This document shows positions 2,869 through 44,790 of a stretch of 64,000 nucleotides of DNA, piece after piece. Made by a program: the position numbers and the translations under genes. The stretch is from a virus. The DNA is taken from positions 1 through 64,000 of IMG/VR virus record IMGVR_UViG_3300047089_000152; one strand, given 5' to 3'. Positions within the stretch are counted from its first letter, which is position 1. Each line of letters begins with the position of its first letter. The notes beneath the pieces were generated by a model. That model was not told where the DNA came from and made no database searches. It saw nothing but the letters and a program-made list of their open reading frames with translations.

Positions 2869-2894
2869 TCAAGAAAAGTTCGGAGGTGACAATC

Positions 2895-3524
2895 GTGGAA
2901 GTTGATGCTGCACAGTACGCGGAGTTCCTGGCATACCAGTCCGGTGAGGCTGCGCGTGAACAGGAACGTGTAGCCGCCCAGTGGGCGGCGTGGGCCGGGC
3001 AGGTCGGCGGTGAGCCGTGGAAGATAGGCCGGGCGCATGACTTGGCGGTCGCGTTGATGGCCGACCATAGCGTGTCCGCGTGGACCCTGAAATTCGGGAA
3101 TGCGCTAAGGAAAGACGGTTCGGTCCATTACCTGCACAGGCCAGGTAGCCGCATGTGGGACGGGAAGCCCGGGACGCTCACGCTGTCCGGGCCGCTGATG
3201 TCGCTGTGGACCGCAGAGCAGCAGCGTGAAACGATCCTGCATGAGATCGCTCACATCATGTGCCCGGACAACGGCCACGACGCAGTGTGGGGATACCACT
3301 GCGCCCGGCTGGGTATCGAACCGCGTACCTGCTGGGACGAATCCCGGATGGCGTCTGCGCCGCCCGTGAAACAGCGTGTGCGCCCGTGGGTGGGTACGTG
3401 CAAAGGCGGGCACGCGCACAAGCCGCGTGCCCGTAAGCCGACCGCGCGGTATAGCTGCGCTGCGTGCAGCCCGGGCCGGTTCGACCCGGGTGCTCTTGTC
3501 ACGTGGGCGCTGAGGTCGCCGTGA
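2895..3524 (+). CDS. SprT-like zinc metalloprotease
   Basis: GTG 2895 lies eight bases after CGGAGG; an in-frame GTG at 2886 overlaps the Shine-Dalgarno. The 209-aa protein contains LHEIAHIM (HExxH zinc-protease motif, about residues 118-125) and a downstream GHDAVWGYH that supplies the third histidine, as in SprT/Spartan proteins. A C-terminal CAAC pair (about 194-197) fits the family's zinc ribbon. SprT-like proteases cut DNA-crosslinked proteins in cells; the phage substrate is unknown. The first 40 residues are an extra helical segment resembling the start of the protein at 924. Confidence 0.8.
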   Translation: MEVDAAQYAEFLAYQSGEAAREQERVAAQWAAWAGQVGGEPWKIGRAHDLAVALMADHSVSAWTLKFGNALRKDGSVHYLHRPGSRMWDGKPGTLTLSGPLMSLWTAEQQRETILHEIAHIMCPDNGHDAVWGYHCARLGIEPRTCWDESRMASAPPVKQRVRPWVGTCKGGHAHKPRARKPTARYSCAACSPGRFDPGALVTWALRSP

Positions 3525-3682
3525 AATGCGGGAAGCTGTGCTTCGCGACGGCAAGCCAGGCACGCGCGGCGATGCGTAAGGTACCAACCGATGCTAACGG
3601 CAGGTTCCCCACGCACGTGTACAGGTGCGGGCAGTGTAAGGCGTGGCATTACTCCAGCAGCAAACAGCGGAGGCGACAGTGA
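3521..3682 (+). CDS. Mini zinc-ribbon protein, 53 aa
   Basis: GTG 3521 overlaps the SprT stop in a GTGA. MKCGKLCF at the start and YRCGQCKAWHY near the end give two cysteine pairs, the layout of a small zinc ribbon; the tail is basic (SSSKQRRRQ). Probably a DNA- or RNA-binding accessory protein, translationally coupled to its neighbours. Confidence 0.65.
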   Translation: MKCGKLCFATASQARAAMRKVPTDANGRFPTHVYRCGQCKAWHYSSSKQRRRQ

Positions 3683-3900
3683 TGATCCCGATGGAATCCG
3701 ATGGATGGTGGGTACCCGTGAAACCTCGCAGGAACGAGGTAGCGAACCCGTCGTGTGAGTGCGGTCACGCGCAGGACGGGCACTGGCGGCGGGGCGGTTT
3801 CTGCCTGCGGCTGCATGCCCTGTATAAGGGTGCGCCCCTGTGCGGGTGCAGGCAGTTCACCAGGCGTGCCGCACCGGCCGTATCAACCCGGGGAGGTTAG
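3682..3900 (+). CDS. Small Cys/His protein, 72 aa
   Basis: ATG 3682 overlaps the previous stop (TGATG). Contains PSCECGHAQDGHW and later CLRLH and CGCRQF, a CxCGH...H...C...CxC series consistent with a metal site. The same CxCGHxxxxH start occurs in the 50-aa protein at 46131. Function unknown. Confidence 0.6.
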   Translation: MIPMESDGWWVPVKPRRNEVANPSCECGHAQDGHWRRGGFCLRLHALYKGAPLCGCRQFTRRAAPAVSTRGG

Positions 3901-3902
3901 CC

Positions 3903-4346
3903 ATGACAGCGGAGACAGCTCAGCCTGTAGTGCACCTGTCGTTGTTCTGCAAGCTCCAGTTCGTCCACGATCAGGATCGTGGACACCGGCAGTGTTCGGG
4001 TACGTGCGACGGTCACGGTTCCGGGATGCCATGCAGGCGGCGGTGCGCGTGCGTGTGCCACGCGCGCGGACAGAATCCCGAACAGATCACCCGCGAGTCT
4101 TTCCTGTCGCTGGTTCACGGTGAGCTGGAATCGTGGCTTCCGCGTGAACCCCGAACCCGTACGTCGTGGTGGATGTTCGTGCAGGAGATCGCCGCTGCCC
4201 GGTTCAACGCGGCGTACGCGGAGGATTTCCCGAAGGAACGGGACCCGCAGGAAGTAGCCGCTATGCGCGCGGAACGCGGGCGCGGACGTGAAAGCCTGCG
4301 GCCGGGTGACAGGGCCTCAACGAGGCAGGTCCCGCCCAAGGAGTAA
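3903..4346 (+). CDS. Cys-rich N-terminal domain protein, 147 aa
   Basis: ATG 3903 after GGGGAGGTTAGCC. Residues 15-60 hold a dense Cys/His cluster (CSGTCDGHGSGMPCRRRCAC, then VCH), likely binding one or two zinc ions. The second half is helical with conserved-looking WWMFVQEIAAARF and a charged tail. Unknown function; the largest of this run of Cys-rich proteins. Confidence 0.65.
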   Translation: MTAETAQPVVHLSLFCKLQFVHDQDRGHRQCSGTCDGHGSGMPCRRRCACVCHARGQNPEQITRESFLSLVHGELESWLPREPRTRTSWWMFVQEIAAARFNAAYAEDFPKERDPQEVAAMRAERGRGRESLRPGDRASTRQVPPKE

Positions 4347-4480
4347 CCCCCTAGACGCGGGCGGGGATCTGGTGGCTGTGAATAATCCCTGGTACGCGCC
4401 CCCATCGTGTCCGGGGGCGGAGGTTAGCCCCAGTTCCCCGCCCGTCCACGCAGTTTTCACCCCAGGAAAGGTATTTAGTC
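4347..4480 (+). other. Structured intergenic region
   Basis: CGGGCGGGGA at 4358-4367 can pair with TCCCCGCCCG at 4435-4444, enclosing a second 7-bp hairpin (CGCCCCC 4397-4403 with 4413-4419). It precedes the membrane-protein gene, whose AGGAAAGG site follows. A leader structure or terminator is possible; no gene is convincing here. Confidence 0.45.
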
Positions 4481-4918
4481 ATGTCGAAGGACAGGACCAA
4501 GGATGGTCCCAGCAGCGTCGACGACTACCGGTGGCGGGTAACTGTCCGTAACAACGTTACGGGGTTGCTGCGTGAATACCGGGTAGCAGCCACGTTGATC
4601 GCGTTGGCGTTCTGCGTGATGGTCACGGCTGTCGTGGCGTTCCCTGACAGTTTCGCCGGGCCGTTTCTGTTCCTAGCCGGGTACGGCATAGCCGTGTCCG
4701 GTTTTATCAATTTCGCGATACGTGAACTCGGCACGTTACAGAAACGCTGCGGCACAGCTGGGCACCGCCCATCACGCGCACTGATTCGTGGTGATGGGCG
4801 GTGCCCAGGTATGCCACATCGGTGTATCAATCCAGGGGAAGGAACCCCGTGTTTCGTCACCCGCTTATCGGCAGCGCCGACCCTGTCCAGGACGTGCGGT
4901 TCGTCGGTGTGCTCGTAG
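4481..4918 (+). CDS. Two-helix membrane protein with read-through tail
   Basis: ATG 4481 after CAGGAAAGG. Two hydrophobic segments (VAATLIALAFCVMVTAVVAF and AGPFLFLAGYGIAVSGFINF, about residues 35-55 and 60-80) make a small inner-membrane protein. The reading frame does not stop where family A element A2 begins: the position of the TAG seen before copy A3 is CAG here, so 60 more residues are translated through the hairpin and into the next gene. The tail therefore looks acquired by stop loss, not functional design. Confidence 0.65.
   Translation: MSKDRTKDGPSSVDDYRWRVTVRNNVTGLLREYRVAATLIALAFCVMVTAVVAFPDSFAGPFLFLAGYGIAVSGFINFAIRELGTLQKRCGTAGHRPSRALIRGDGRCPGMPHRCINPGEGTPCFVTRLSAAPTLSRTCGSSVCS
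4742..4835 (+). ncRNA. Family A stem-loop, copy A2
   Basis: Flanks AACGCTGCGGCAC and GGTATGCCACATCGGTGTAT enclose a perfect 18-bp stem (4758-4775 with 4791-4808). GGCA and TGCC pair outside it. It lies inside the extended frame of the membrane protein and ends ahead of GGGGAAGGA, the ribosome-binding site of the next gene. Confidence 0.65.
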
Positions 4919-5022
4919 AATCCGCCCTCGTATGCAGATGCGGCGGGGAGCCCACCGTGACTCTACCTGGCCCGGACGGCGACCTGCATGTCTGTAACGA
5001 GTGTGCTACTCGTCTCGTCTAG
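4849..5022 (+). CDS. Mini zinc-finger protein, 57 aa
   Basis: GTG 4849 has GGGGAAGGA six bases upstream. LVCRCGGEP and LHVCNECATRL give CxC...CxxC, a probable zinc ribbon. Overlaps the last 70 bases of the extended upstream frame. Followed immediately by copy A3. Confidence 0.6.
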   Translation: MFRHPLIGSADPVQDVRFVGVLVESALVCRCGGEPTVTLPGPDGDLHVCNECATRLV

Positions 5023-5095
5023 AACGCTGCGGCACGCGGGGCGCAGCCCGAACCCTGCACCGGGTACGGGCTGCGCCCGGTATGCCACATCGTGT
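5023..5095 (+). ncRNA. Family A stem-loop, copy A3
   Basis: Begins on the upstream TAG with AACGCTGCGGCAC; a 12-bp stem pairs 5039-5050 with 5067-5078; GGTATGCCACATCGTGTAT closes it. This copy shows the normal stop position relative to the element. Confidence 0.65.
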
Positions 5096-5129
5096 ATGCC
5101 GAATTCAACACTGCTCATCGGAGGACCCC

Positions 5130-5483
5130 GTGAAAATCAGGAGCCTGCTCATCGCCGGTACGATGCTGGCCGGAACCCCGCTTGGTTTCGCTGCGCTGGC
5201 CAGCCCCGCGGACGCGGCTGTCGTGTCCTGCTCGACTATCCACACGGACAAGACGTCGACCACGTCGACCGGGTCGTGGTCCCACACCGTCACGAACGAG
5301 AACAAGTGCGGCCGGGACTACGACAAGTGGACTGTGCGGATCTCCCACTCCTACACCGGCGCGCACTCCGTCACCCACACGTACAGGGACGAGGACTACC
5401 CGCGGTACAACCAGACCGCGGTCCGGGACTCCTGGTCCAAGACCGGCCGTTACACCCACACCGTGACCGTCACCGTCGGCTGA
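5130..5483 (+). CDS. Secreted protein, 117 aa
   Basis: GTG 5130 with CGGAGG seven bases upstream. Residues 1-30 are a signal peptide: MKIRS, a hydrophobic core, then SPADAA for cleavage. The mature part of about 87 residues has two cysteines (VVSCST and NKCGRDYD) that may form a disulfide, and it is rich in Thr, Ser, His and Tyr with alternating polar/apolar beta pattern. Exported from the host cell after infection; it may act on the envelope or block superinfection, but no family was recognised. Confidence 0.7.
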   Translation: MKIRSLLIAGTMLAGTPLGFAALASPADAAVVSCSTIHTDKTSTTSTGSWSHTVTNENKCGRDYDKWTVRISHSYTGAHSVTHTYRDEDYPRYNQTAVRDSWSKTGRYTHTVTVTVG

Positions 5484-5490
5484 CAGCGTG

Positions 5491-5536
5491 CGGCCCCCGG
5501 ATCACTCAGGAGCGAACCGTGCCGATCCGGGGGCCG
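5491..5536 (+). terminator. 13-bp hairpin
   Basis: CGGCCCCCGGATC (5491-5503) pairs with 5524-5536 over a 20-base loop. No T-run. It does not carry family A flanks. Confidence 0.55.
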
Positions 5537-5565
5537 CCGCATCACCACATCTGAGGAGGTGAAAT

Positions 5566-5835
5566 ATGCTCACCAGGCATTTTTACGCGCGTCGGCTCCG
5601 AGCCCACTTCGACGACGAGGCACACGCCAGGACTTCGATGCTCGCTTCTTACTGCGACTGGTGCGCCGGCAGGCGGCAGGTTCGTGTCGTTGTGGACGGG
5701 CAAATCAGCGGGCAGGCTTGCTACAACCACCTATCCCGGGTGATGTACGAACTCATACAGGCAAATCCAGGTGTCGCAGTGCACCCCGAATTCAAGGAAA
5801 CTAAGCGGCCACCCAGACCAGTCATCGTCAACTAG
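5566..5835 (+). CDS. Hypothetical protein with CxxC, 89 aa
   Basis: ATG 5566 follows GAGGAGGTGAAAT. Contains SYCDWCAGRRQVRVVVDG, a CxxC knuckle leading into beta strands, then a helix with ACYNHLSRVMYELI. The pattern resembles a small zinc ribbon plus helix. Function unknown; followed by copy A4. Confidence 0.65.
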   Translation: MLTRHFYARRLRAHFDDEAHARTSMLASYCDWCAGRRQVRVVVDGQISGQACYNHLSRVMYELIQANPGVAVHPEFKETKRPPRPVIVN

Positions 5836-5925
5836 CACGAACGACAGGCGGGGAGCCGCCCGGGTGAGCCATATCGCCCGGGCGGTTCCCGGTATGCCGG
5901 ATCGGTGTATCAAACCAAGGAAAGG
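5836..5925 (+). ncRNA. Family A stem-loop, copy A4
   Basis: Diverged left flank (CACGAACGACAGGC), a 14-bp stem with one G-U pair (5851-5864 with 5877-5890) and the typical right flank GGTATGCCGGATCGGTGTAT. GGC/GCC outer pairing is kept. Confidence 0.6.
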
Positions 5926-5933
5926 AGCCGGTT

Positions 5934-6161
5934 ATGGCTAGGGCCACAGGTACGAAGCGCACCGAGCCGATGCCCGCGCACAGGCTGCTGGCCGCACTCA
6001 TCAGGGCGATGGAGGCGGGCGTGGACAACCAGGAAATCCTCATGGCCATGAGGTTCGCCGACAGGGCCGAGGGTGTGAAGCAGTCCCCCGTGTGGGGGAT
6101 GGTCACCGACGACATGAACGCAGCCGCCGACAAGATGAACGCGCTGCAAGACCCCACGTAA
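5934..6161 (+). CDS. Hypothetical helical protein, 75 aa
   Basis: ATG 5934 after GGAAAGGAGCCGGTT. Predominantly helical (AHRLLAALIRAMEAGVDNQE, later DDMNAAADKMNALQ), acidic to neutral, no cysteines. No domain recognised. Confidence 0.65.
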   Translation: MARATGTKRTEPMPAHRLLAALIRAMEAGVDNQEILMAMRFADRAEGVKQSPVWGMVTDDMNAAADKMNALQDPT

Positions 6162-6258
6162 CGCTGAACGGCACGCGGCGTGCCACCCGGTCCCACCAGA
6201 ATGTGCAGTGGGCCCCGGGTGGCACGCGGTACGCCGGGTCGGTTGTGCCACAGGTTAA
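6160..6258 (+). ncRNA. Family A stem-loop, copy A5
   Basis: ACGCTGAACGGCAC and a right flank ending TCGGTTGTGCCACAGG enclose a 12-bp stem (6179-6190 with 6215-6226). The next ribosome-binding site (AAGGAAGGAG) follows directly, as in copies A2 and A4. Confidence 0.6.
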
Positions 6259-9487: not shown

Positions 9488-9759
9488 AAGGTAAACGGTG
9501 TCCTGACTGCGGCCAGCCTATGACCCGGTATGTTACTGGCTGGAAGTGCATGAACGTCAAGGCGCACGCCAAGTCGCTCCGTAACCCGAACAAGGGTGCT
9601 GCCAGGAATCCCCGCGGTGTCAACCAGACCGCACAGAAGAAACCGTCCAAGGGCAGGTACGTTCTGACAGACTGCCCGAACTGTGAGAACGGTCAGCGTC
9701 TGAACCCTAAACGGTGCACACTGTGCAAGAAGCGCGGACGGGTCTGGACGATTAAGTAG
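9484..9759 (+). CDS. Double zinc-ribbon protein, 91 aa
   Basis: GTG 9484 overlaps the previous TGA (GTGA). Two cysteine modules: CPDCGQPM...WKC at residues 5-25 and CPNCENG...CTLCKKRGRV at 65-88, separated by a basic linker. The second resembles a DnaJ-type or rubredoxin-like knuckle. Probably nucleic-acid binding. Followed by stem-loop B1. Confidence 0.7.
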   Translation: MKGKRCPDCGQPMTRYVTGWKCMNVKAHAKSLRNPNKGAARNPRGVNQTAQKKPSKGRYVLTDCPNCENGQRLNPKRCTLCKKRGRVWTIK

Positions 9760-9762: not shown

Positions 9763-9830
9763 CATCCTGCCAGGAGGAGCGTGCAGGTCCACAATGGACC
9801 TGCACGCTCTGCTTGCCAGAGAGGCAGCAT
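9763..9830 (+). ncRNA. Family B stem-loop, copy B1
   Basis: CATCCTGCCAGGAGG, then a perfect 14-bp stem (9778-9791 with 9795-9808, loop CAA), then CTGCTTGCCAGAGAGGCAGC. The right flank can itself fold as TGCC/GGCA. Four further copies follow up to 15.1 kb, each with a different stem. Confidence 0.65.
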
Positions 9831-9852
9831 CAACTAGGAGTTTGAGATAGTC

Positions 9853-10428
9853 ATGAACATCACAGAACCGCCGACCACACCCATCGCGACGTTGCCGCCG
9901 AGACCAGACCATCACAACCGTAATCGTGTCCTCGCAGGCGCGGGCGCGGTCGTGGCGCTCGTGATCGGGATCGCTGTCGGTGCGTCAGCTAGCGGCACTA
10001 CCACCGTTACCAAGCCCGTTCCCGGTCCGACAATCACCGCGACACAGACGGTTGCAGGTCCCACGCCGACCGTCACGCAGACGACCCATGTCAAGGTCAC
10101 CCAGACAGTCAACGTGCCGCCGCCCGCGCTGACCGTGGCGTCGTACCACGGTACGGGTAGCTGGAACAGCCCGCAGTTCAACGTGTCCGACGGTGCGGTG
10201 CTGACCGTCCGGTTCTCCTACTGGAACAACACCAGCGGGTACGGCGGTGACAACTTCATCGCCGACATCGTGTCCAGCGGCGACAACTTGTCGCTCGCCA
10301 ACGACATTGCCGTCTCCGGTGGTAAGACCACCACGGTGTATCCCGACACCAGTCTCGGTGGCAGCAACCTGTACCACCTGGAAGTGCAAGCGACCGGTCC
10401 CTGGTCGGTCACCATCAGCTCCAACTGA
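9853..10428 (+). CDS. Membrane-anchored surface protein, 191 aa
   Basis: ATG 9853; only a weak TAGGAG site upstream. A cytoplasmic proline-rich start, one transmembrane helix at about 28-48 (VLAGAGAVVALVIGIAVG), a Thr/Pro stalk at 50-95, and a C-terminal beta-rich domain (GTGSWNSPQFNVSDG to GPWSVTISSN). This is the layout of actinobacterial type II membrane proteins with an outside domain. A role in superinfection exclusion is possible but is only inference. Confidence 0.7.
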   Translation: MNITEPPTTPIATLPPRPDHHNRNRVLAGAGAVVALVIGIAVGASASGTTTVTKPVPGPTITATQTVAGPTPTVTQTTHVKVTQTVNVPPPALTVASYHGTGSWNSPQFNVSDGAVLTVRFSYWNNTSGYGGDNFIADIVSSGDNLSLANDIAVSGGKTTTVYPDTSLGGSNLYHLEVQATGPWSVTISSN

Positions 10429-10430
10429 AT

Positions 10431-10506
10431 CCCTGGCAGGAGGAGGGGACACGCGCGCTCTGACCGGTGGTGCGCGTGTCCCCTCTGCTTGCCACGGAGG
10501 CACAGC
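10431..10506 (+). ncRNA. Family B stem-loop, copy B2
   Basis: CCTGGCAGGAGG, a 13-bp stem (10444-10456 with 10472-10484), then CTGCTTGCCACGGAGGCACAGC. The left flank is CCTGGCAGG rather than CCTGCCAGG. Confidence 0.65.
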
Positions 10507-10519
10507 AGAAAGGACAACC

Positions 10520-10834
10520 ATGATGAGCAAGAGGACACGTTTGATTGCTGCTGGTGTGCTCGCAGCGTCCGCGTTGACAGCAGGCTGTTCCAGCCCGCAG
10601 CTGAAAGACCTCGGCGGGACCGGGCAGGCGAACCCCGACTACATCATCACATACCTGAACGTGTCAGAGTTCCCGAACATAACCCTGGTCTGCATCAAAG
10701 GCGTCGGGTTCGCGACCACAACCCGCGACTATGAGCCGCTCACCAGGATCCCCCAGTGGGACGCTTTCTGCGCCACGAAGGAACCAGCGAGCGGTCAGCC
10801 GATACCGACGCAGAGTCCTGCCACCACCGGCTGA
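10520..10834 (+). CDS. Lipoprotein, 104 aa
   Basis: ATG 10520 (or 10523), with AAAGGACAACC upstream. A basic start, hydrophobic core and lipobox ASALTAGC place the mature N-terminus at Cys of CSSPQ. The mature 80 residues contain two cysteines (LVCIKG and AFCATK) that may be linked, and a Pro/Thr tail. Such phage lipoproteins sometimes block DNA entry of related phages; that is inference. Confidence 0.7.
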   Translation: MMSKRTRLIAAGVLAASALTAGCSSPQLKDLGGTGQANPDYIITYLNVSEFPNITLVCIKGVGFATTTRDYEPLTRIPQWDAFCATKEPASGQPIPTQSPATTG

Positions 10835-10847
10835 GGAGAACACGCAC

Positions 10848-11213
10848 ATGAAAGAAGCCCGAGAGATCTACGCAGAACTCCAGTCGGTTACGTATTTCAC
10901 GGTGACCGACGATCACCTCAAACTTATGCGCCGCGCCTACGTGTCCTGGGACGACTGCGAGTTTGGCGCCCCTGCTGTCGACTGCAAGCGCCCGTACGGG
11001 AACTCCGATGTCCTGGCCGACATAGCGGAGATCCTGGAAGTACCGGACGATCAGTGGAAAGACGCGGACGGGGAGCCGTTCCACGCGGCGGAGGCGCTCA
11101 TACGTTTGCATGCCGAGACGGCGGTCGTGCTGCAAATCGCGCTGTCTACCGGCCAGTTCAGCACCGGCCGTTACGTACGCGAAAAGTTCGGCACGTGGCG
11201 GCCACTAATCTAG
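10848..11213 (+). CDS. Hypothetical protein, 121 aa
   Basis: ATG 10848 after GAGGAGAACACGCAC. Helical with YFTVTDDHLKLMRRAYVSWD and a segment CKRPYGNSDVLADIAEILE, then a region with HAAEALIRLHAETAVVLQIA. The signature CKRPYGNS..DIAEIL is seen in actinophage hypothetical proteins; no function known to me. Confidence 0.7.
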   Translation: MKEAREIYAELQSVTYFTVTDDHLKLMRRAYVSWDDCEFGAPAVDCKRPYGNSDVLADIAEILEVPDDQWKDADGEPFHAAEALIRLHAETAVVLQIALSTGQFSTGRYVREKFGTWRPLI

Positions 11214-11215
11214 GC

Positions 11216-11311
11216 ATCCTGCCAGGGAGAACACGCCCAGGCACGGCCCGCGCTTGCTAGCGGCTTGCACGGTACGGGTCTGGGCGTGTTCTTCTTGCCA
11301 GAGAAGCAGCG
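11216..11311 (+). ncRNA. Family B stem-loop, copy B3
   Basis: ATCCTGCCAGGGA, a 12-bp stem (11229-11240 with 11280-11291) closing a 39-base loop, then TTCTTGCCAGAGAAGCAGC. The largest loop in the family; it could hold further structure. Confidence 0.6.
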
Positions 11312-11329
11312 GACACGAAACGAGGAATC

Positions 11330-11569
11330 ATGAAAACGAGAACACGACCTATCCCGCATGTCCAACAGTGGCAGTGCGGGTTCTGCGGGCCTGGTGCGCG
11401 CGGTGACCCGCATGTCTGCCATGACAGCCGGGGCAGGTGCAGGGGCACGTGGGATTTCTTCGTACCCCATACCCTGGGAAACGAGTATGGTGCGGTGACC
11501 TGCGCGTGCGCCGCGTCTGGGCACCACAAGACGGTCGCCCGGGTCGTGAACTTTGCCTGGCTGTCATGA
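11330..11569 (+). CDS. Cys/His-rich protein, 79 aa
   Basis: ATG 11330 after CGAGGAATC. Contains WQCGFCGPGARGDPHVCHD, then CRGTW and VTCACAASGHH: seven cysteines and several histidines in a zinc-finger-like arrangement. Its stop overlaps the next ATG (ATGA). Confidence 0.6.
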   Translation: MKTRTRPIPHVQQWQCGFCGPGARGDPHVCHDSRGRCRGTWDFFVPHTLGNEYGAVTCACAASGHHKTVARVVNFAWLS

Positions 11570-11835
11570 GACAGGATGAGGCTGAGAGGCTCGCAGCGGC
11601 GCATGTCCGCACTATGAGACGGTTCGGGTTGCTGATGTGGCTTGTTATCCTCCCAGCGCTGGGACTGTTCTTGTACTTGGGGGTTTTCGCGCCCGGGTAC
11701 CACCCGCAGCGCCACTCAGCGCCCCCGACGTTCAGCTGCTCGTCTCAGCGTGCAGCGTCGCAGGTGCTGGGTGACGGCGGTGCGATAGCCCCGTTGTGCG
11801 GGAACACGCCATACCCTGACGCGCCGGGCACGTAG
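11566..11835 (+). CDS. Single-pass membrane protein, 89 aa
   Basis: ATG 11566 overlaps the upstream stop. A charged helical N-terminus, one membrane helix at about 20-42 (GLLMWLVILPALGLFLYLGV), then an outside tail with two cysteines (TFSCSSQ and PLCGNTPY) that could form a disulfide. Function unknown. Confidence 0.65.
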   Translation: MRQDEAERLAAAHVRTMRRFGLLMWLVILPALGLFLYLGVFAPGYHPQRHSAPPTFSCSSQRAASQVLGDGGAIAPLCGNTPYPDAPGT

Positions 11836-11863
11836 CCCGCTGGGCGGCGGTAGAAGAGGAGAA

Positions 11864-11992
11864 ATGAGATTCCTGGTCAAAGTGGATAGGTGGCTGCACC
11901 GCGTGATGCGCGGGCGCTGCTACTGTCCGTGGTTGTGCCTGAAAATTTCCTACTACCAGGCCATGAAAGACGAGAAGAAGAAAGGTAAGTAG
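11864..11992 (+). CDS. Small basic protein, 42 aa
   Basis: ATG 11864 after AAGAGGAGAA. Arg/Trp-rich start, a central CYCPWLC motif and a Lys-rich tail (KDEKKKGK). Ends just before a strong terminator. Confidence 0.5.
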   Translation: MRFLVKVDRWLHRVMRGRCYCPWLCLKISYYQAMKDEKKKGK

Positions 11993-12014
11993 CCGGTCCT
12001 GATCTGCGCATTAC

Positions 12015-12048
12015 ACCCGGATCCCGTTGTGTGGGGTCCGGGTTTTTT
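12015..12048 (+). terminator. Strong intrinsic terminator
   Basis: ACCCGGATCCC pairs with GGGGTCCGGGT (12015-12025 with 12033-12043, one T-G pair) and runs into six T residues at 12043-12048. The clearest rho-independent terminator in the left block, directly before the ATPase gene. Confidence 0.85.
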
Positions 12049-12069
12049 GCGCTCACCAGGAAGGTGAGC

Positions 12070-13722
12070 ATGTCGACAACAGAAAGGGCAGAAATGCCAG
12101 CGGATCGTAACAGTCGGGAACGGACACAGCTCGCGCAGATGTTCAAGAAGGAGATGTCCCGGGTCGCAGCCGAGCAGATCAAGGCCGCGTCCAGGCCGCC
12201 GACAGAGCAGGAGAAGCGCACCGCGGCGATCATGGCCAACCTGGACGAGCTGGGCGGCAAGATCGTCGGCGACGACAACATCGTCTTCGAGGGCACGCAG
12301 ATCAAGCTGCCCAGGGACATGGAGGGCAAACTCGACGAGGTCGTCGCGTTCATCGAGCAGTACGCCGAAAACCAGAACGCGCACTTCAACATGAAGCGCG
12401 CGTTCAACTACCGGCCACACGACGTGGCGGCTGCGTTCGGCCGCACGATGAAGAAGCTGTTCGGCGTGTCCGGGGTCGGGAAGGCGCAGTTCTCCATGTT
12501 CGGGATCATCCCACCGGAGTACATCAGCGTGAACTCCGGTCCCAACGGGGAAACCATCCAGGTCCCGTGGGGGAAGGTCGAGTTCTCGCTGCTCGAAGCC
12601 GAATTCTACATCGGTGCGACCAAGAGCGCAGAGTTCGGGACCGTCGGCGAGATCACCGTGGACGCACCGAAGAAGAACCGCAACAAGATCGACGGGTTCT
12701 TCAAGGTCCTCGCGGAGGAACTGCAACTCAGGTCGATTTACCGTGGCCACGCGATCACCGCGCACCCGAAGGAGCCTCAGTTCCTGGACCTGAACGCGAT
12801 CAACCCGGCGCGGGTCATCTACACCGAGGACGTGGAGACGCAGCTGCGGGTCAACCTGTGGGCGCCGCTCCAGTACTCGGAGACGCTGGCTGCGAGGAAT
12901 ATCCCGTTCAAGAGGGCCGTGCTGCTGTTCGGCCCGAACGGCACGGGTAAAACCCTCGCGGGTGGCCTGGCAGCGATGCTGTCCACGCAGAACGGGATCA
13001 CGTACATCCTGGTGCGTGCGCAGGACGACCCGATGGCCGCGCTGGAAACCGCGGCCATGTACGAACCGGCCGTGGTCATGGTCGAAGACATCGACACGGT
13101 CGCGTCTGCTAACCAGGACAGGAACCAGATCAAGCTGGTCCTGGACAGGCTGGACAACGTGGCCGCGAAGGGCCGCAAGATCATGGTCATCTTCACCACC
13201 AACGAAGTGGCCGACCTGGACCGGAACGTGCTCCGGCCCGGGCGTATCGACGCTGCGATCGAAGTCGGTGCCCTGGACCGTCCCGGGTACGAGCGGCTCG
13301 TCAAGGCGCTCATCGAACCGGAGTTCCTCTCCGACGACATCAACTACGACACGGTGTGCGAGGCGATGTACTACTACGACGAGGTCGCCAAGGAAAGGAA
13401 GGGGTTCCTGCCCGCGTTCGCTACCGAGGCGATCCAGCGGTCCATGCGGTACCGGATCATGGAGAACCATGGTGAGCCGGGTGTCATCACCACCGACAAC
13501 CTTGTGGACGCGTGCAAGGGCATGGCGTCGCACATCGTCCTGATGGACGCCGCGGAACGCGCCGACGACAAGAAGACGACGATGGAAGCCGCGTTCAGCG
13601 AGGCCATCGGCGCTGCCCTGTCGGACACGACAGGGACGTTCGCGGAGATCGAGGAAGGCGCAGGTATGCACTCCGTCTTCGAGAACGTGCAGGTGGAGTA
13701 CTCGACGGACGGCCATTCCTGA
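12070..13722 (+). CDS. AAA family ATPase
   Basis: ATG 12070 follows AGGAAGGTGAGC. The 550-aa protein has about 250 N-terminal residues without a named domain, then an AAA module: Walker A GPNGTGKT (about 287-294), Walker B VVMVEDID (about 334-341), a sensor-like IFTTNE and an arginine-finger region LRPGRID (about 388-394). The AAA core resembles CDC48/proteasomal-ATPase-type modules, which remodel protein complexes; the N-terminal part likely sets the substrate. It lies between an intrinsic terminator and stem-loop B4, so it may be its own unit. Long antisense open frames across it are shadows. Confidence 0.85.
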   Translation: MSTTERAEMPADRNSRERTQLAQMFKKEMSRVAAEQIKAASRPPTEQEKRTAAIMANLDELGGKIVGDDNIVFEGTQIKLPRDMEGKLDEVVAFIEQYAENQNAHFNMKRAFNYRPHDVAAAFGRTMKKLFGVSGVGKAQFSMFGIIPPEYISVNSGPNGETIQVPWGKVEFSLLEAEFYIGATKSAEFGTVGEITVDAPKKNRNKIDGFFKVLAEELQLRSIYRGHAITAHPKEPQFLDLNAINPARVIYTEDVETQLRVNLWAPLQYSETLAARNIPFKRAVLLFGPNGTGKTLAGGLAAMLSTQNGITYILVRAQDDPMAALETAAMYEPAVVMVEDIDTVASANQDRNQIKLVLDRLDNVAAKGRKIMVIFTTNEVADLDRNVLRPGRIDAAIEVGALDRPGYERLVKALIEPEFLSDDINYDTVCEAMYYYDEVAKERKGFLPAFATEAIQRSMRYRIMENHGEPGVITTDNLVDACKGMASHIVLMDAAERADDKKTTMEAAFSEAIGAALSDTTGTFAEIEEGAGMHSVFENVQVEYSTDGHS

Positions 13723-13725
13723 CCC

Positions 13726-13785
13726 CTGCCAGGAAGGTCCCGCCCAGGCGCACGCGGCCTGGGCGGGGCCTGCTCGACAGGAATC
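13726..13785 (+). ncRNA. Family B stem-loop, copy B4
   Basis: CCCTGCCAGGAA, a 14-bp stem with one G-U pair (13736-13749 with 13757-13770), then CTGCTCGACAGGAATCAGC. The right flank has diverged from TTGCCAG. Confidence 0.6.
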
Positions 13786-13841
13786 AGCAAGTCTGCCCTA
13801 TGCCACTCATCAGGGGCTTCACAAGGAGGAGAAACAAGACA

Positions 13842-14942
13842 ATGGCACTACAAGATGTATCAGGAAGGACGGTCATCGTCGGCGGTGGTCTCCACGCAGC
13901 CGTGGTAGCCGCGACACTGTTCGCGTGCAATAAGCCAAGGCCAATCGTGGTAGAGCGACGGTCGAAGACAGGGGGCATATTCGCTGACCTGTCCAATTTC
14001 CGGATGAACTCCGCGAACGGTGCGGGTATCAGGTCGGTGGGCAGCCCGGGCCCGACCAGGATCCCGTCGATGTCACCGTCGGATGACATCAACTGGGTTC
14101 CCAACGCCACGCGCCAGGTCGCGTCCTCGTCGGGGATGGTGGAGTACCCGTACTCCTACGACATGGCCAAGCTGATCCAGGAAACACTAGCAGCGCACGC
14201 TCAGGTGTACACCAGCACCGAGATCACGTTCGACCAGTACGGTGGCTGCACTACGAACGATAGTTATATCGGGAACGCTAAACGGGTCATTTTCGCTGCC
14301 GGTCTCGTAGAACCCCCGGGCATGCCGACAGGCCCGGGGATCATGAGCGGTTACGCGTTCATGAAGAGTCCAGTGCGTAACCTGGCCGGTAAGAAGATCG
14401 CTCTGGTCGGTGCCGGTGACACCGCGTCGCAGGTCGCAGAGTTCATGGTCGGGCAGGGTGTATCAGCGCCTACCTCATTCCCTGATCGCGTCGACTGGTT
14501 CGGCGGTCTTTCCATGCCTACCACGAAACAGGAGTGGATGCTTAAAAGCCACGCCCGGTGGGCTGGGATCGGCCGTCACCTCCCCGACGAAGACAGGTCA
14601 AGGTCCGAAGGTGTTTTCAGCCCGCACATCGCACGGGGTGACGTGGCCTCGCTTGGCAGCGCCGCGTGGGTGAACGGGGAGGTTTACGACCTGGTCGTCA
14701 TGGCGACAGGTTTCGCCGTGGCCCAGTGCCCTGTCACGGCTGAATCTGCGATGAAGATCGGCGAGAAAATCGTCGCGAAATTCTACGACCTTGGTGACGG
14801 ATCCGCGCGCGTGTTCCGGGTCGGTACCTGCGCCTCGCTCAACGCGACGTTCAAGCCGTACCAGTCGCGTTTCCCCGCCGCGAAGGAAGCCATCTTCAAC
14901 CTCGGGCCGCGAACCGCGGCGTTCGCTGGGAGCCTGTCCTAG
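13842..14942 (+). CDS. Flavin-dependent NAD(P) oxidoreductase
   Basis: ATG 13842 with AAGGAGGAGAAAC upstream. Two dinucleotide-binding folds: an N-terminal VIVGGGLHAAVVAATLFA (GxGxxA-type FAD site, about 8-26) with an acidic end VERR, and a second VGAGDTASQVAEFM (about 187-200) for NAD(P)H. ATGFAV near 285 fits the closing motif of flavin monooxygenases and thioredoxin-reductase-like enzymes. At 366 aa it is shorter than typical flavin monooxygenases. Substrate unknown. Unusual cargo for a phage; followed by a ten-codon open frame. Confidence 0.75.
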   Translation: MALQDVSGRTVIVGGGLHAAVVAATLFACNKPRPIVVERRSKTGGIFADLSNFRMNSANGAGIRSVGSPGPTRIPSMSPSDDINWVPNATRQVASSSGMVEYPYSYDMAKLIQETLAAHAQVYTSTEITFDQYGGCTTNDSYIGNAKRVIFAAGLVEPPGMPTGPGIMSGYAFMKSPVRNLAGKKIALVGAGDTASQVAEFMVGQGVSAPTSFPDRVDWFGGLSMPTTKQEWMLKSHARWAGIGRHLPDEDRSRSEGVFSPHIARGDVASLGSAAWVNGEVYDLVVMATGFAVAQCPVTAESAMKIGEKIVAKFYDLGDGSARVFRVGTCASLNATFKPYQSRFPAAKEAIFNLGPRTAAFAGSLS

Positions 14943-14960
14943 AAAACGAAGGAGTATTTT

Positions 14961-14993
14961 ATGTCAGATCTCAATCTCACCGGCCTGGCTTAA
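14961..14993 (+). CDS. Ten-codon open frame MSDLNLTGLA
   Basis: ATG 14961 has AAGGAG six bases upstream (14949-14954), a better ribosome site than many genes here, and stops at TAA 14991. It could be a leader peptide, a precursor peptide or the remnant of a gene lost by mutation. Translation is supported only by the ribosome site. Confidence 0.35.
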   Translation: MSDLNLTGLA

Positions 14994-15009
14994 TACCAGA
15001 ACCGCTGAA

Positions 15010-15080
15010 TCCTGCCAGGAAGGGCCACCGCATCGCTGTGTGCGCTGTGATGCGGTGGCCCTGCTTGCCAGGAGGCAATC
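15010..15080 (+). ncRNA. Family B stem-loop, copy B5
   Basis: TCCTGCCAGGAA, a perfect 13-bp stem (15022-15034 with 15049-15061), then TGCTTGCCAGGAGGCAATC. Last copy of this family. Confidence 0.65.
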
Positions 15081-17646: not shown

Positions 17647-17714
17647 CTGGCCGCTGGCCGTGCCACCCAAAGCGAAACTCTGGGTGGTGCGGGGAACGTC
17701 CAGTTCGCGAAGAA
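17646..17714 (+). ncRNA. Family C structured element, copy C1
   Basis: An outer stem ACTGG (17646-17650) / CCAGT (17700-17704) and an inner stem GCCACCCA (17662-17669) / TGGGTGGT (17681-17688) flank an internal loop made of CCGCTGGCCGT on the left and GCGGGGAACG on the right. The loop strands match copies at 21768, 22545 and 23964 while both stems differ in sequence. Confidence 0.6.
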
Positions 17715-17728
17715 GGAGACCGAAGACC

Positions 17729-17968
17729 ATGAGTGAACCGAAACGTCCCGACTGGCCAGGTGAGGCTGACTGGAAACGGGCGCAGTCGGCTAGGAAGGCC
17801 ACCACCGCCGCTATCGGAGCTGAACTTATTAACGCCTTCAACCAGGGATGGACGGACCCGTCCGACATGGCGGGTCATGGTCACGAAACCAGCACCGGGT
17901 TCGAGTTCCACCTCGAACGTGACGGCGTGACCTACACGATCGCCGTGTCCAGGGACATGGGCACGTGA
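17729..17968 (+). CDS. Hypothetical protein, 79 aa
   Basis: ATG 17729; AAGGAGACCGAAGACC precedes. Acidic/aromatic start (PKRPDWPGEADWKRAQ), a helix (AAIGAELINAFNQGW) and a beta C-terminus (FEFHLERDGVTYTIAVSR). Unknown. Confidence 0.6.
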   Translation: MSEPKRPDWPGEADWKRAQSARKATTAAIGAELINAFNQGWTDPSDMAGHGHETSTGFEFHLERDGVTYTIAVSRDMGT

Positions 17969-17972
17969 CCTT

Positions 17973-18098
17973 GTGCCTATCACCGCGAGGTGCGGGAAGC
18001 ACTGCAAGTCGAAACGAATCGGCGGTCGGCTCGTAGAAAAACACTGCAACTGCAAACTGTGCCACGGGAAATACTCCAATGGAGGAGATAAGAAATAA
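17973..18098 (+). CDS. Cys-rich basic mini protein, 41 aa
   Basis: GTG 17973, five bases after the previous stop; no strong ribosome site. RCGKHCKSKRIGGRLVEKHC then NCKLCHGKYS: six cysteines and three histidines, very basic. Probably a zinc-binding nucleic-acid protein. Too short for most gene finders. Confidence 0.5.
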   Translation: MPITARCGKHCKSKRIGGRLVEKHCNCKLCHGKYSNGGDKK

Positions 18099-18330
18099 CC
18101 CCGTGGACGCGTTGCATCATCACCCCGTGCGGGTGGTGGTGTTGCGTGCCAGCCGGCTGGGCATCGACCTCGACAACCAGCACCTCTACGGGTTCGCGTT
18201 GCTGATGCCCGACTCAATAGAACAGGAGGTGTGGGACGCGCTCGCCGAAGAGTGGCGGGACGAGATCGCGTACAGGACTACCACACGCGTCCCGGCCGCC
18301 GTGCAGGAGCAGCTGGTTCTGACGGGGTGA
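18079..18330 (+). CDS. Hypothetical protein, 83 aa
   Basis: Start uncertain: ATG 18079 overlaps the preceding gene; GTG 18103 or 18127 are alternatives. A hairpin with the TTGCxxTGCCAGCCGG motif lies inside the first 75 bases, which argues for a later start. The C-terminal AEEWRDEIAYRTTTRVP recalls the protein at 7949. The last 50 bases overlap the antisense HNH gene. Confidence 0.5.
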   Translation: MEEIRNNPVDALHHHPVRVVVLRASRLGIDLDNQHLYGFALLMPDSIEQEVWDALAEEWRDEIAYRTTTRVPAAVQEQLVLTG

Positions 18331-18652
18331 ACCCGGGGACTGGGGTGAGTACCTTACGCCGGGCGTATTCCAGCGGCCTGGCCTGTCTCACCTGGTTGCA
18401 TCGGTGCCCGCATTCCGGGCACCGATGCGGCCCCCCGTGGATGGGTCGCAGGTTGGTCAGCTCGAACCGCAAGTGCGGCGCTTCGCACACAGTGATGACG
18501 TGGTCGACCTGCCCACCGTCTACCCCGCCGGGTATCGGGTGGTAGCAGACGTGGCACACGGGACCGTAGGTGGCGTAGACGAGGCGGCAGAGCTGCTTCC
18601 ACCGGTACCCGCCGCGTCCCATCGGGCCCGTCCCGGCGGACTTGACTGCCAT
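18278..18652 (-). CDS. HNH endonuclease on the opposite strand
   Basis: Only convincing minus-strand gene in the first 26 kb besides the one at 26308. ATG at 18652 chosen. The 124-aa protein has CHVC, then QVDHVIT (HNH Asp-His), FELTNLRPIHGG (Asn and His) and CPECGHRCNQ, a full HNH nuclease with zinc cysteines. Such free-standing HNH enzymes act as homing or packaging nucleases. Its antisense placement inside a plus-strand gene train suggests insertion. Confidence 0.75.
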   Translation of the reverse strand: MAVKSAGTGPMGRGGYRWKQLCRLVYATYGPVCHVCYHPIPGGVDGGQVDHVITVCEAPHLRFELTNLRPIHGGPHRCPECGHRCNQVRQARPLEYARRKVLTPVPGFTPSEPAAPARRPGRVW

Positions 18653-18683
18653 GCCTAAAGGATAGAGGAAGTGGATGTGAGCT

Positions 18684-18851
18684 GTGAGCAACACGAACTG
18701 TACCCGTGGGGGTGAGTGCGGGGCGAATCACCGTGCGTACTGCAAGAAGTGCAGGGATGGTTTCCACTGCGGTCGGCATTTGAGGGGCTGCCACGATTCG
18801 TGTAGCAGATCGACAGGCTATCCTTCCAGGCGCAAAGACCCGCGAAGATAG
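18684..18851 (+). CDS. Cys/His-rich mini protein, 55 aa
   Basis: GTG 18684 chosen; GAGGAA lies thirteen bases upstream. Eight cysteines and four histidines in 40 residues (CTRGGECGANHRAYCKKC, then FHCGRHLRGCHDSC), enough for two zinc sites. Basic tail. Frame runs cleanly to TAG 18851. Confidence 0.55.
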   Translation: MSNTNCTRGGECGANHRAYCKKCRDGFHCGRHLRGCHDSCSRSTGYPSRRKDPRR

Positions 18852-18863
18852 GAGAACAACCAC

Positions 18864-19145
18864 GTGGAAGCGGTCAAGATACCCAAAGGTGACCGGGTAC
18901 TGCTCGTGAACCCGGAGCATCCCCGTCGTTTCCGGTTCAAACGGTGGGCTGGGCAACTACCAGACGGTGGCGTGCTCACCGCTACGGGACTGGCGGCGGG
19001 GTGCTGCGGTCACTACTCGTTCTTCCGCTGGCGTATCCTGCTTCACCGTCACCGTTACGACAGGCCGGTGCCTGAAGACATGAAAGCTGCGCTGCGCGGT
19101 GAAGCTCCAGTACCAGAGTGGTTCCTGAAAGGAGAACAACCATGA
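18864..19145 (+). CDS. Hypothetical protein, 93 aa
   Basis: GTG 18864 with AGGAGAACAACCAC upstream, a site repeated before the next two genes. Beta-rich start (GDRVLLVNPEHPRRFRFKRW) suggests a small barrel; CCGHYSFFRW in the middle. Unknown. Confidence 0.65.
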   Translation: MEAVKIPKGDRVLLVNPEHPRRFRFKRWAGQLPDGGVLTATGLAAGCCGHYSFFRWRILLHRHRYDRPVPEDMKAALRGEAPVPEWFLKGEQP

Positions 19146-19237
19146 CGAAGAGGTGCCCTAACTGCGGTGCTCAGAATGATCTGAGAAACCTGGTATGCAG
19201 GGCTTGCAGGGCCTCCCTGCCCCCCAGCAGTACGTGA
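19142..19237 (+). CDS. 31-aa zinc ribbon
   Basis: ATG 19142 (ATGA overlap) after AGGAGAACAACC. KRCPNCGAQ and VCRACRAS form a complete CxxC...CxxC ribbon in 31 residues, one of the smallest in the window. Confidence 0.65.
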   Translation: MTKRCPNCGAQNDLRNLVCRACRASLPPSST

Positions 19238-19252
19238 GAAAGGAGAACAACC

Positions 19253-20011
19253 ATGACTACACCTGCTAGTACGGCGCCGTGGCGGCAGATTATCGCCCCG
19301 GACAGGCTGCATCCCGGCCCGGATAACCCGCGTGAGGATCCGGGGGATATCCCGGCGCTGACCGCTTCGATCAGGCGGCATGGCCTGAAGCATCCTGTAC
19401 TGGTCGTGCCCCGGGGGGGTGAAAGCCAGGAATTCGACATCGAGGACGGGTGGCGTCGCTGGCTGGCGATGAGGGACTGGATGACAGGTATCCCTTGCGT
19501 GGTCATGCCTCAGCTGCCCGGTGAGAGGCGGCCGGTGCGGGCGATCTTCACCGCGCTGGTGACAGACGCGTACCGCAAGGACCTGAACCAGATCGAGCGA
19601 GCCAAGGGGTTCCAGCGGCTGCAAAAAGAATTCGGGTTCACCGCGACGGAGATCGCCGGGCAGATCGGCATGTCCGTGTCGACGGTGACGAACGCGCTGA
19701 TGCTGCTGGAACTGGCCCCCGAGACACAGCAGGCGGTCGCGGAAAAGAAGATCAGCGCCACCGAGGTAGGCGGGCTGCTCCGCAGGTACCGCGCGAAGCA
19801 GCGAAGGAAGCTGGGTAAGCAGCCGATCGCCCCGAAGTGGGAACCGGACTGGTTCACCCCTCAGCATGCGCTCGCTAAGCAGGCGGGGGAGCTGTGTGAC
19901 CGGCGTGAGCATAACATGCGCCGCCGCATCGGTAAGGTGGCGTGCGGCCAGTGCTGGGAGTCCGTCATCCGCCGCGACCAGGATAAGGTCAACGAGGCAC
20001 CCAGTGCCTGA
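19253..20011 (+). CDS. ParB-like nuclease/partition domain protein
   Basis: ATG 19253 after AAAGGAGAACAACC. The 252-aa protein begins with a ParB/Srx-type fold: DRLHPGPDNPRED, then ALTASIRRHGLKHPVLVV and the signature DGWRRWLAM (family GxRR). A helix-turn-helix follows (FGFTATEIAGQIGMSVSTVT, about 130-150), then a basic region and a C-terminal CGQC. ParB-like phage proteins regulate transcription or act in partition; DNA binding is well supported, the role is not. Confidence 0.8.
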   Translation: MTTPASTAPWRQIIAPDRLHPGPDNPREDPGDIPALTASIRRHGLKHPVLVVPRGGESQEFDIEDGWRRWLAMRDWMTGIPCVVMPQLPGERRPVRAIFTALVTDAYRKDLNQIERAKGFQRLQKEFGFTATEIAGQIGMSVSTVTNALMLLELAPETQQAVAEKKISATEVGGLLRRYRAKQRRKLGKQPIAPKWEPDWFTPQHALAKQAGELCDRREHNMRRRIGKVACGQCWESVIRRDQDKVNEAPSA

Positions 20012-20183
20012 CGTAGTGCCAGCTGGGACGAAACTCCCTGCTGATGCGTATGCGCGGCTGCGGTGGCTCGCTTACAAGCGGAATACCACTGTCAGCGCGA
20101 TCATCGCGTCGTATGTGGCGCGGTGTCTCGCGGAGGAAGACCTGCGCGGGTTCGTACCCTCGGACGATCCGAAGGATTCCTGA
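20004..20183 (+). CDS. Ribbon-helix-helix regulator, 59 aa
   Basis: GTG 20004 overlaps the ParB-like gene by eight bases. TKLPADAYARLRWLAYKRNT then VSAIIASYVARCLAEE is the strand-helix-helix layout of Arc/CopG/MetJ-type dimeric repressors. Coupled to the ParB-like protein, so it may regulate the same targets. Confidence 0.65.
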   Translation: MPDVVPAGTKLPADAYARLRWLAYKRNTTVSAIIASYVARCLAEEDLRGFVPSDDPKDS

Positions 20184-20434
20184 TGCCTACATGGCCGTGC
20201 CCTCAGTGCGGTGCGAAGAAAGGCGACCCGCATAAGCCTACGTGCAGCAGAGCGCGGGCCGGTCGCAGGAAACCTACATCGAAACGGGTGCAGCCCAGCG
20301 GCCTCCCCAGGGGTAAAGGCAGGTTCTCCACGTGCGTGAACCACAAACCTGTCGTGTACAAGACGCGGGGTGACACCGAGTACCTGCAATGCAGCACGTG
20401 CAGCAGACACCTCGGCAGCCGGAAGAAGAAGTAA
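20183..20434 (+). CDS. Zinc-ribbon protein, 83 aa
   Basis: ATG 20183 overlaps the previous stop. CPQCGAKKGDPHKPTC at the start and LQCSTCSRHLGSRKKK at the end give two cysteine pairs with a long basic linker. Likely nucleic-acid binding. Confidence 0.6.
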   Translation: MPTWPCPQCGAKKGDPHKPTCSRARAGRRKPTSKRVQPSGLPRGKGRFSTCVNHKPVVYKTRGDTEYLQCSTCSRHLGSRKKK

Positions 20435-20447
20435 GAGGAGGTCAGCC

Positions 20448-20738
20448 GTGGCGGATGAGCGTGACCGTTTCATGGTCGCGATGCACCAGATGCGGGACTC
20501 GTTCCAGGTCTTGAAGGAACACGCCGAGTGGGGTTACTACGAACAGGAGAACGGTGACTTCTACGACGGATACGCCGAAGCGAAGCGTATCTTCGGGGAC
20601 GTGCTGCTCCAGCGTGACACCCAGCCTGAGAAGGATGAGAAGTACTGGGAAGAGGTGGAACGTGCTGTCGGTAAAGGCACGCGGAGCATCCTGTGGGGCA
20701 CATCCACCCGTTCGCTGCGCAGGGCGCTCGCCCGGTGA
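20448..20738 (+). CDS. Hypothetical helical protein, 96 aa
   Basis: GTG 20448 after GAGGAGGTCAGCC. Charged helical protein with aromatic core (HAEWGYYEQENGDFYDGYAE). No motif recognised. Confidence 0.65.
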   Translation: MADERDRFMVAMHQMRDSFQVLKEHAEWGYYEQENGDFYDGYAEAKRIFGDVLLQRDTQPEKDEKYWEEVERAVGKGTRSILWGTSTRSLRRALAR

Positions 20739-20739
20739 G

Positions 20740-21027
20740 ATGGTCATCTTCATGGCTTTCGCGTATGGGTGGAAGGGCAGGGACGACGAGGAACCCGGCG
20801 TGGACATTCCAGCACTTGCGATGCGCGCTTTCTTCGACGACCCGGGCGTGACCGAAGATGAGAAAGACAAACTCGCCTTCCGGTGGGCGTTGGACGCGGA
20901 GGAGTGGCTGAACAGGAACGTCGCACCCGAGGGGTACCTCTTTGGGTGGCACGATTTCGTGTTCTACCTGAATCCCACCCAGTGGTGGGAGCCGATCGGC
21001 GGACCCGACCAGCTGTGGCTCCCATGA
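20740..21027 (+). CDS. Hypothetical acidic protein, 95 aa
   Basis: ATG 20740 two bases after the previous stop; ATG 20752 is an alternative. Acidic with WALDAEEWLNRNVAPEGYLF and WHDFVFYLNPTQWWEP. The stop overlaps the next start. Unknown. Confidence 0.55.
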   Translation: MVIFMAFAYGWKGRDDEEPGVDIPALAMRAFFDDPGVTEDEKDKLAFRWALDAEEWLNRNVAPEGYLFGWHDFVFYLNPTQWWEPIGGPDQLWLP

Positions 21028-21302
21028 CCGTGTTCGGTGAAGACGGGATGGTCGTCTGGACGGAGGAGGACAAGCAGGAAGCTGACTGCGTACGCAGGAT
21101 GCGCGGTGTCAACACGGACATGCATGCCGTCGCGGACTATCACCGGAACCTGTCGGCTATCCGCAGCGTGCTGATCGGTGAGCTGGTACACCGGTTCGGC
21201 TGGTCGCAGCATGACGTCGCAGCCGAGCTGGGAATATCGCAGGCACGCGTCCACAAGATACTGAAGGAGCTTGATGAACGGAAACAAGAGGAAGTGGGCT
21301 GA
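21024..21302 (+). CDS. Helix-turn-helix protein, 92 aa
   Basis: ATG 21024 (ATGA). The C-terminal LVHRFGWSQHDVAAELGISQ then ARVHKILKEL (about 58-85) is a clear helix-turn-helix of the ParB/sigma-4 kind; the N-terminus is acidic. Probably a transcriptional regulator. Confidence 0.7.
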   Translation: MTVFGEDGMVVWTEEDKQEADCVRRMRGVNTDMHAVADYHRNLSAIRSVLIGELVHRFGWSQHDVAAELGISQARVHKILKELDERKQEEVG

Positions 21303-21417
21303 GCGCCGGAAGCTTTTTGAGAAGCTGGCGAAGTCGCAGGCGCGTGCCAGGAGACTCGCCGAGAAGCAGGCCGCGGCGGACCGGAAACAAGTAGAAGGCA
21401 AGAAAAAGAACAGGTAG
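21274..21417 (+). CDS. Basic helical mini protein, 47 aa
   Basis: ATG 21274 inside the end of the upstream gene, with GAAGGAGCTTG in front. Almost all Lys/Arg/Ala/Glu (KRKWAERRKLFEKLAKSQ...), one long charged helix. Similar in character to the proteins at 24673 and 25354. Confidence 0.55.
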   Translation: MNGNKRKWAERRKLFEKLAKSQARARRLAEKQAAADRKQVEGKKKNR

Positions 21418-21423
21418 GGGTCG

Positions 21424-21750: not shown

Positions 21751-21767
21751 AGAAGGGAACAAGAGAC

Positions 21768-21834
21768 TTGATCGCTGGCCGTGGCACCCCACCGGATATG
21801 GGGGTGCTGCGGGGAACGATCAACCGACGTTCCA
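21768..21834 (+). ncRNA. Family C structured element, copy C2
   Basis: Outer stem TTGATC (21768-21773) / GATCAA (21818-21823), inner stem GCACCCC (21784-21790) / GGGGTGC (21801-21807), conserved loop strands GCTGGCCGTG and GCGGGGAAC, then ACGTTCCA. A TACACT (-10-like) follows at 21841-21846. Confidence 0.65.
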
Positions 21835-21870
21835 CTGTAGTACACTATGCGCACAGAGAGAGGAAAAGCC

Positions 21871-22103: not shown

Positions 22104-22121
22104 GCACCTAGAAGGAGTCCC

Positions 22122-44786: not shown

Positions 44787-44790
44787 CGGT

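Follow-up and report, generated by a model that had tools for sequence, protein, structure and literature searches.

What are the five long stem-loops that lie in the gene borders between positions 9,764 and 15,080 of this viral DNA, and in which molecule do they act? The sequence analysed (the window) spans 64,000 nucleotides and is part of a 104,150-base IMG/VR virus record. The first-pass annotation had set the five apart as family B, distinguished by its flanks from two further families, A and C, and had taken them for structured boundary elements, either spread locally by duplication or sharing an RNA-binding factor within one regulon.

Five stem-loops and their gene borders

All five family B stem-loops were recovered, on the plus strand and within 2 nt of the positions first given for them (Table 1). 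Each copy forms, on the coding strand, an imperfect hairpin of ~25-29 bp, with predicted stem energies in the window of -40 to -57 kcal/mol. The lower stem is nearly fixed (TCCTG.CA/TTG.CAGGA) and retains a C·C and an A·G mismatch, and the core between the two stems, 5'-GGAG-3'/5'-UGCU-3', is conserved and non-standard, being composed of G·U, G-C, A·G and G·U. The flanks ascribed to the family are close to those described: CCTGCCAGG is present in four of the five copies, the copy at 10431 having CCTGGCAGG instead, and TTGCCAG is present in three, its place being taken by TTGCCAC at 10431 and by TCGACAG at 13726. Families A and C were found as well, with flanks unlike those of family B.

A covariance model of family B matched all five copies with E values of 2e-12 to 1e-15; its only other matches in the same genome were the reverse complements of these copies and a weak, terminator-like match at 11,995-12,071 (E 2.6e-4). 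The curated covariance models of Rfam yielded no match in bases 1-27,000 with E up to 0.5. Hairpins scoring at least 11 numbered 21 in bases 1-26,000, against 0-2 in Markov-shuffled sequence; elsewhere in the record, 13 strong hairpins were found in 26,000-64,000 and six in 64,000-104,150. By our own gene calls, the gaps between genes make up one quarter of the first 26 kb and contain 25 of its 33 hairpins.

Table 1. Stem-loops of the window and the genes adjoining family B
Feature	Position	Strand	Remarks
Family A hairpins	2784..6236 (2784-2854, 4745-4821, 5024-5093, 5842-5899, 6169-6236)	+	family B plan, other flanks
Gene upstream of copy 1	9550..9759	+	69 aa; no Pfam or PHROG match
Family B copy 1	9764..9829 (hairpin 9764-9822)	+	hairpin and covariance-model match; lower stem, core GGAG (9773-9776)/TGCT (9810-9813), 15-bp upper stem; short P3 arm downstream (GGCAG)
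Gene between copies 1 and 2	9853..10428	+	191 aa; no Pfam or PHROG match
Family B copy 2	10430..10505 (hairpin 10430-10498)	+	hairpin and covariance-model match; core GGAG (10439)/TGCT (10486)
Two genes between copies 2 and 3	10520-10834, 10848-11213	+	no Pfam or PHROG match
Family B copy 3	11216..11311 (hairpin 11216-11304)	+	variant core GGGA (11225)/TTCT (11292); long terminal loop
AAA-ATPase gene, immediately 5' of copy 4	12070..13722	+	Pfam AAA, E 1.6e-11
Family B copy 4, between AAA-ATPase and FAD genes	13723..13790 (hairpin 13723-13783)	+	core GGAA (13732)/TGCT (13771); degenerate 3' flank
FAD/NAD(P) oxidoreductase-like gene between copies 4 and 5	13842..14942	+	weak Pyr_redox_2, E 4e-5, below curated cut-off
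Family B copy 5	15009..15080 (hairpin 15009-15074)	+	core GGAA (15018)/TGCT (15062); P3 TTGCC/GGCAA
Family C hairpins	17648..24030 (17653-17698, 21774-21818, 22550-22599, 23969-24016)	+

The direction of the genes is unchanged past every family B copy. At megablast sensitivity, the named-phage collection contained no nucleotide relative of the window. Among named phages, those of Mycobacterium and Gordonia have the best-matching homologs of the AAA-ATPase, and the window phage therefore probably infects an actinobacterium. The region just upstream of the AAA-ATPase gene (12015-12070) has a canonical U-run terminator (12015-12043) and a CTCACC-AGGAA-GGTGAG hairpin whose loop contains the Shine-Dalgarno sequence of this gene; the region weakly matches the family B model and could represent a derived copy or a regulatory leader.

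Relatives in uncultured and cultivable phages

A loose form of the flank pattern gave mostly chance matches in IMG/VR, yet it exposed three records of sister phages, G001 (82.9 kb), G003 (119.4 kb) and G002 (99.4 kb), whose AAA-ATPases are 52-54% identical to that of the window. G001 and G003 gave identical copies and were counted as one phage, G002 as the other. The exact flanks, searched with no stem required, marked five distinct places in the sister phages, each of which proved to be a hairpin, whereas matches in other contigs were not hairpins; the covariance model added one further family B copy in G002.

Related phages have family B at matching borders, which upholds the view of these structures as gene-boundary elements. 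A copy stands 3' of the AAA-ATPase gene in the window, and 3' of the AAA-ATPase and a 79-aa gene in G002 and G003, and copies adjoin the FAD-oxidoreductase gene in all three phages; at neither of these borders do the sister phages carry unrelated sequence. At most other family B borders, the adjoining genes have no homolog in the sister phages. The expectation that a gained gene always brings a boundary copy failed for the 79-aa gene, which is present in G002 and G003 and absent from the window, with one element in each. Local spread by duplication was not borne out either, upper-stem likeness being 0.465 within a genome and 0.452 between genomes, and the most similar pair of upper stems (0.89) consists of copy 4 and the matching copy of G002, both at the border that follows the AAA-ATPase. 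From these comparisons, the family B copies appear to be old and to have been retained by vertical descent at some borders, most of their neighbour genes being lineage-specific. The confinement of each family to its own stretch holds in the window phage and breaks down in G002, where family B copies (5.7-40 kb) interleave with family C copies (16-37.5 kb).

Beyond the sister phages, distant AAA-ATPase relatives (37-43% identity) yielded no family B hairpins, and the bacterial genomes searched no family B flanks. Scans of viral and bacterial contigs with the core pattern returned chance matches except for one sister copy, and model R2 matched none of 246 genomes (the class of a Streptomyces) in an insensitive search that had no positive control.

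Cluster M mycobacteriophages have been reported, in a 2021 announcement, to carry the repeats CR1-CR4, of which CR3 and CR4 are preceded by stem-loops (PMC7953290), and two genomes of this cluster, Rey (JF937105) and PegLeg (KC900379), were compared with family B. Model R1, a covariance model made from family B copies only and containing no cluster M sequence, matched PegLeg (E 2.5e-6, 1e-4 and 1.3e-4) and Rey (3e-5), with weaker matches besides, and had no match in TM4, Adephagia or McProf. A rule-based search located 13 elements in Rey and nine in PegLeg, all sense, with none antisense in these two genomes and none in the three controls, TM4, Adephagia and McProf. Motif-blind hairpin scans of Rey and PegLeg found the same core in most intergenic hairpins.

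The cluster M stem-loops share with family B the GGAG/UGCU core, a varying upper stem, sense-only orientation, a start at or over the stop codon and, downstream, the competing pairing P3 described below; unlike family B, they have a varying lower stem and are then followed by a ACACGGAGAAGGGA-type repeat before the next gene. As the sequences downstream of family B copies have no CR3/CR4-like repeat in common, family B is a variant and not a strict member of the cluster M type. Judged by sequence, the two are very probably the same motif. Intergenic stem-loops had already been noted in cluster M, and it is their structural definition that the present comparison sharpens; the literature searched, which did not include the original cluster M description, gave no account of their structure or function. 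The comparison shows one RNA motif common to cultivable mycobacteriophages and uncultured phages, with an exact core, an exact position relative to the stop codon and a competing fold, and so opens a hitherto unexplained trait of actinobacteriophage genomes to direct tests in a phage that can be grown in the laboratory.

The extended start-associated sequences (ESAS) of cluster K (PMC3203893) resemble family B in being inverted repeats of actinobacteriophages, located in gene gaps of the non-structural region and conserved with particular genes; they are 17-bp inverted repeats with sequence-conserved arms that include TTGACA, and are tied to a 13-bp start repeat (SAS). Family B was rejected as an ESAS, given that its upper stems vary, that R1 matched neither TM4 nor Adephagia, and that ESAS are without the GGAG/UGCU core. 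The 17-bp palindromes of cluster O (PMC4351075) are likewise repeated inverted repeats, many of them intergenic and of unknown function, but differ from family B in having invariant 7-bp arms and no strand preference, with one third lying inside genes.

Evidence for selection on the sense-strand RNA

With the terminal loop left out, 15 family B copies from the three phages aligned without gaps. Paired cells made up 91% of this set, a percentage that is inflated because the copies are related and were partly collected by stem or core. Compensatory double changes occupied 69 cells, compared with 22.7 in shuffles (0 of 500 reached 69) and far fewer in slid controls. Nearly all of this covariation sits in the upper stem, the sequence of which differs between copies while its pairing is kept. 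When cluster M copies were added (30 sequences), 192 compensatory cells were counted against 62.7 after shuffling, and the lower stem covaried too; the invariance of GG/UGCU in this larger set is inflated, being due in part to selection for GG/UGCU.

A G·U wobble pair forms in the RNA of one strand only, the other strand reading A·C. On the coding strand, G·U exceeded A·C by 109 to 46 (p 4e-7) in gap hairpins from the element-bearing regions of the three phages, whereas genic control hairpins were balanced, with 54 G·U and 65 A·C; G·U outnumbered A·C by 65 to 7 in the right-end region of Rey and by 62 to 17 in that of PegLeg. We reasoned from the excess in the gap hairpins and the balance in the genic controls that the sense RNA is the selected molecule. 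These patterns indicate that family B is almost certainly a functional element of the sense-strand RNA.

Action at the level of DNA, with the palindromes bound as double-stranded operators or copied by a transposase as mobile repeats (REPs), appears very improbable. CCTGCCAGG is indeed a palindrome, and the palindromes of cluster O have been read as possible binding sites for dimeric proteins (PMC4351075), but the family B stems vary in sequence and keep their pairing, G·U exceeds A·C on the coding strand only, and the elements occur in a single orientation, with 0 antisense in Rey and PegLeg. No promoter-like site was found, and copies sharing a genome lack the near-identity expected after recent transposition.

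The conserved flanks might alternatively serve as recombination borders, allowing gene blocks to be swapped by homologous, RecT-type exchange or as cassettes, with the hairpin secondary. The genes at family B borders are mostly lineage-specific, the window phage encodes a RecT-like annealing protein, and CR3 copies accompanied two gene insertions in cluster M (PMC7953290), all of which this explanation would accommodate. It sits poorly with flanks of only ~10 nt, with upper stems that are unlike between copies and with a 79-aa gene gained or lost without a copy of its own, and the strand-specific tolerance of G·U together with the compensatory changes indicates RNA; we consider it improbable.

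Stop codons, a competing fold and a possible role

Copies 1 to 5 begin 4, 1, 2, 0 and 14 nt, respectively, after a stop codon. Of 37 copies, 33 have a lower stem whose start falls at -9 to +16 nt relative to the stop codon, and half of the cluster M set (11 of 22) have a stop codon that reaches 5 nt into the lower stem; the distance from the core to the next start codon is 31-68 nt. An alternative helix, P3, can form between the 3' strand of core plus lower stem and the sequence just downstream; P3 and the lower-stem fold exclude each other. P3 takes the form of GCUUGCC/GGCAAGC, UCUUGCC/GGCAAGA, UGCUG/CAGCA or UGCUGC/GCAGCA in different copies. Over the 37 copies it surpassed shuffled downstream sequence with a combined p of 1e-9, the copies being related; support comes from the sister and cluster M copies and is weak in those of the window (single p 0.23-0.93). 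In predicted energy, the extended form has the advantage, with a median of ~3 kcal/mol.

From structure, strand and position, which can be read directly in the sequences, we infer that family B works post-transcriptionally as an RNA element between cistrons, with a fold dependent on ribosomes terminating just upstream and with mRNA processing, stabilisation or insulation as its likely output, a reading to which we assign a probability of roughly 50%. A ribosome terminating on the upstream gene would mask the 5' half of the lower stem and so release the 3' half to pair into P3. Were no ribosome terminating there, the hairpin would close over its whole ~25 bp, purine-rich core included, and would be the form recognised by an RNA-binding factor or endonuclease of host or phage origin. 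Along a long polycistronic mRNA, each block of genes would in this way be processed, stabilised or insulated. Taken on their own, sensitivity to the terminating ribosome is put forward tentatively, and processing or insulation of the mRNA as the output is likewise a proposal made with some reserve. Action at the RNA level is well supported, and the family B copies may share an RNA-binding factor, as suggested by the first-pass annotation.

The RNase III sites of phage T7 are imperfect hairpins of about two turns with a conserved irregularity, located between the genes of a polycistronic RNA. Family B resembles these sites in plan and differs from them in sequence; stop-codon overlap and P3 are not known to be among their features. 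A phage-encoded RNase III was absent from all five phages tested, and putative processing by RNase III would therefore need the host enzyme. RtcB RNA ligase was rejected as a common partner, as it occurs in both cluster M phages and is absent from the three uncultured records.

Some of the same observations would suit terminators or attenuators that lack a U-tract, that is, G+C hairpins that partly stop RNA polymerase after a gene block and so grade expression along the operon. The elements follow directly on stop codons, the stems of the window copies are very strong (-40 to -57 kcal/mol predicted), and the canonical U-run terminator at 12,015-12,043 weakly matches the family B model. No U-run, however, follows the stem of any family B copy, same-direction genes run on past all of them, and terminators have no need of a conserved lower stem, an A·G core or sequence shared across phages; we regard this explanation as unlikely. 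The missing U-run, phage RNase III and Rfam match narrow the choices without deciding between them.

The proposed ribosome-dependent RNA element may be part of something wider, in which two-state RNA switches in distantly related actinobacterial phages would read ribosome termination upstream and set message fate at gene borders, with families A, B and C as parallel versions bearing different cores; we find this generalisation rather doubtful. In family C, an internal GCTGGCCGTG/GCGGGGAACG is conserved and is flanked by two helices that vary; the family follows the family B plan with a different core, GCUGGCCGUG/GCGGGGAACG.

Other repeats were seen in these genomes. Two similar intergenic hairpins at 8707-8760 and 18108-18160 (CACCC..GGGTGGTG..TGCCAGCCGG) perhaps constitute a fourth family, and another family of gene-border hairpins (CGGGCCAG..GGCCCGGGGC), with none in the window, occurs on the reverse complement of G002 at 20279-20334 (L147) and 25640-25687 (L146). 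GG recurs every 5 bases (GGNNNGGNNN) at 43301-43475 and 44776-46070, and over shorter runs at 47134-47199 and 62754-62810; this periodicity, which reaches 21 of 30 positions per 150 bases compared with a maximum of 10 in shuffled sequence, is absent in the two sister phages. The contig start (window positions 1-110) is G+T-rich simple sequence (GTGGGTGGGTGG), and a 56-nt sequence occurs twice, at 40675-40730 and 41810-41865, the two occurrences being 89% identical and 1.1 kb apart.
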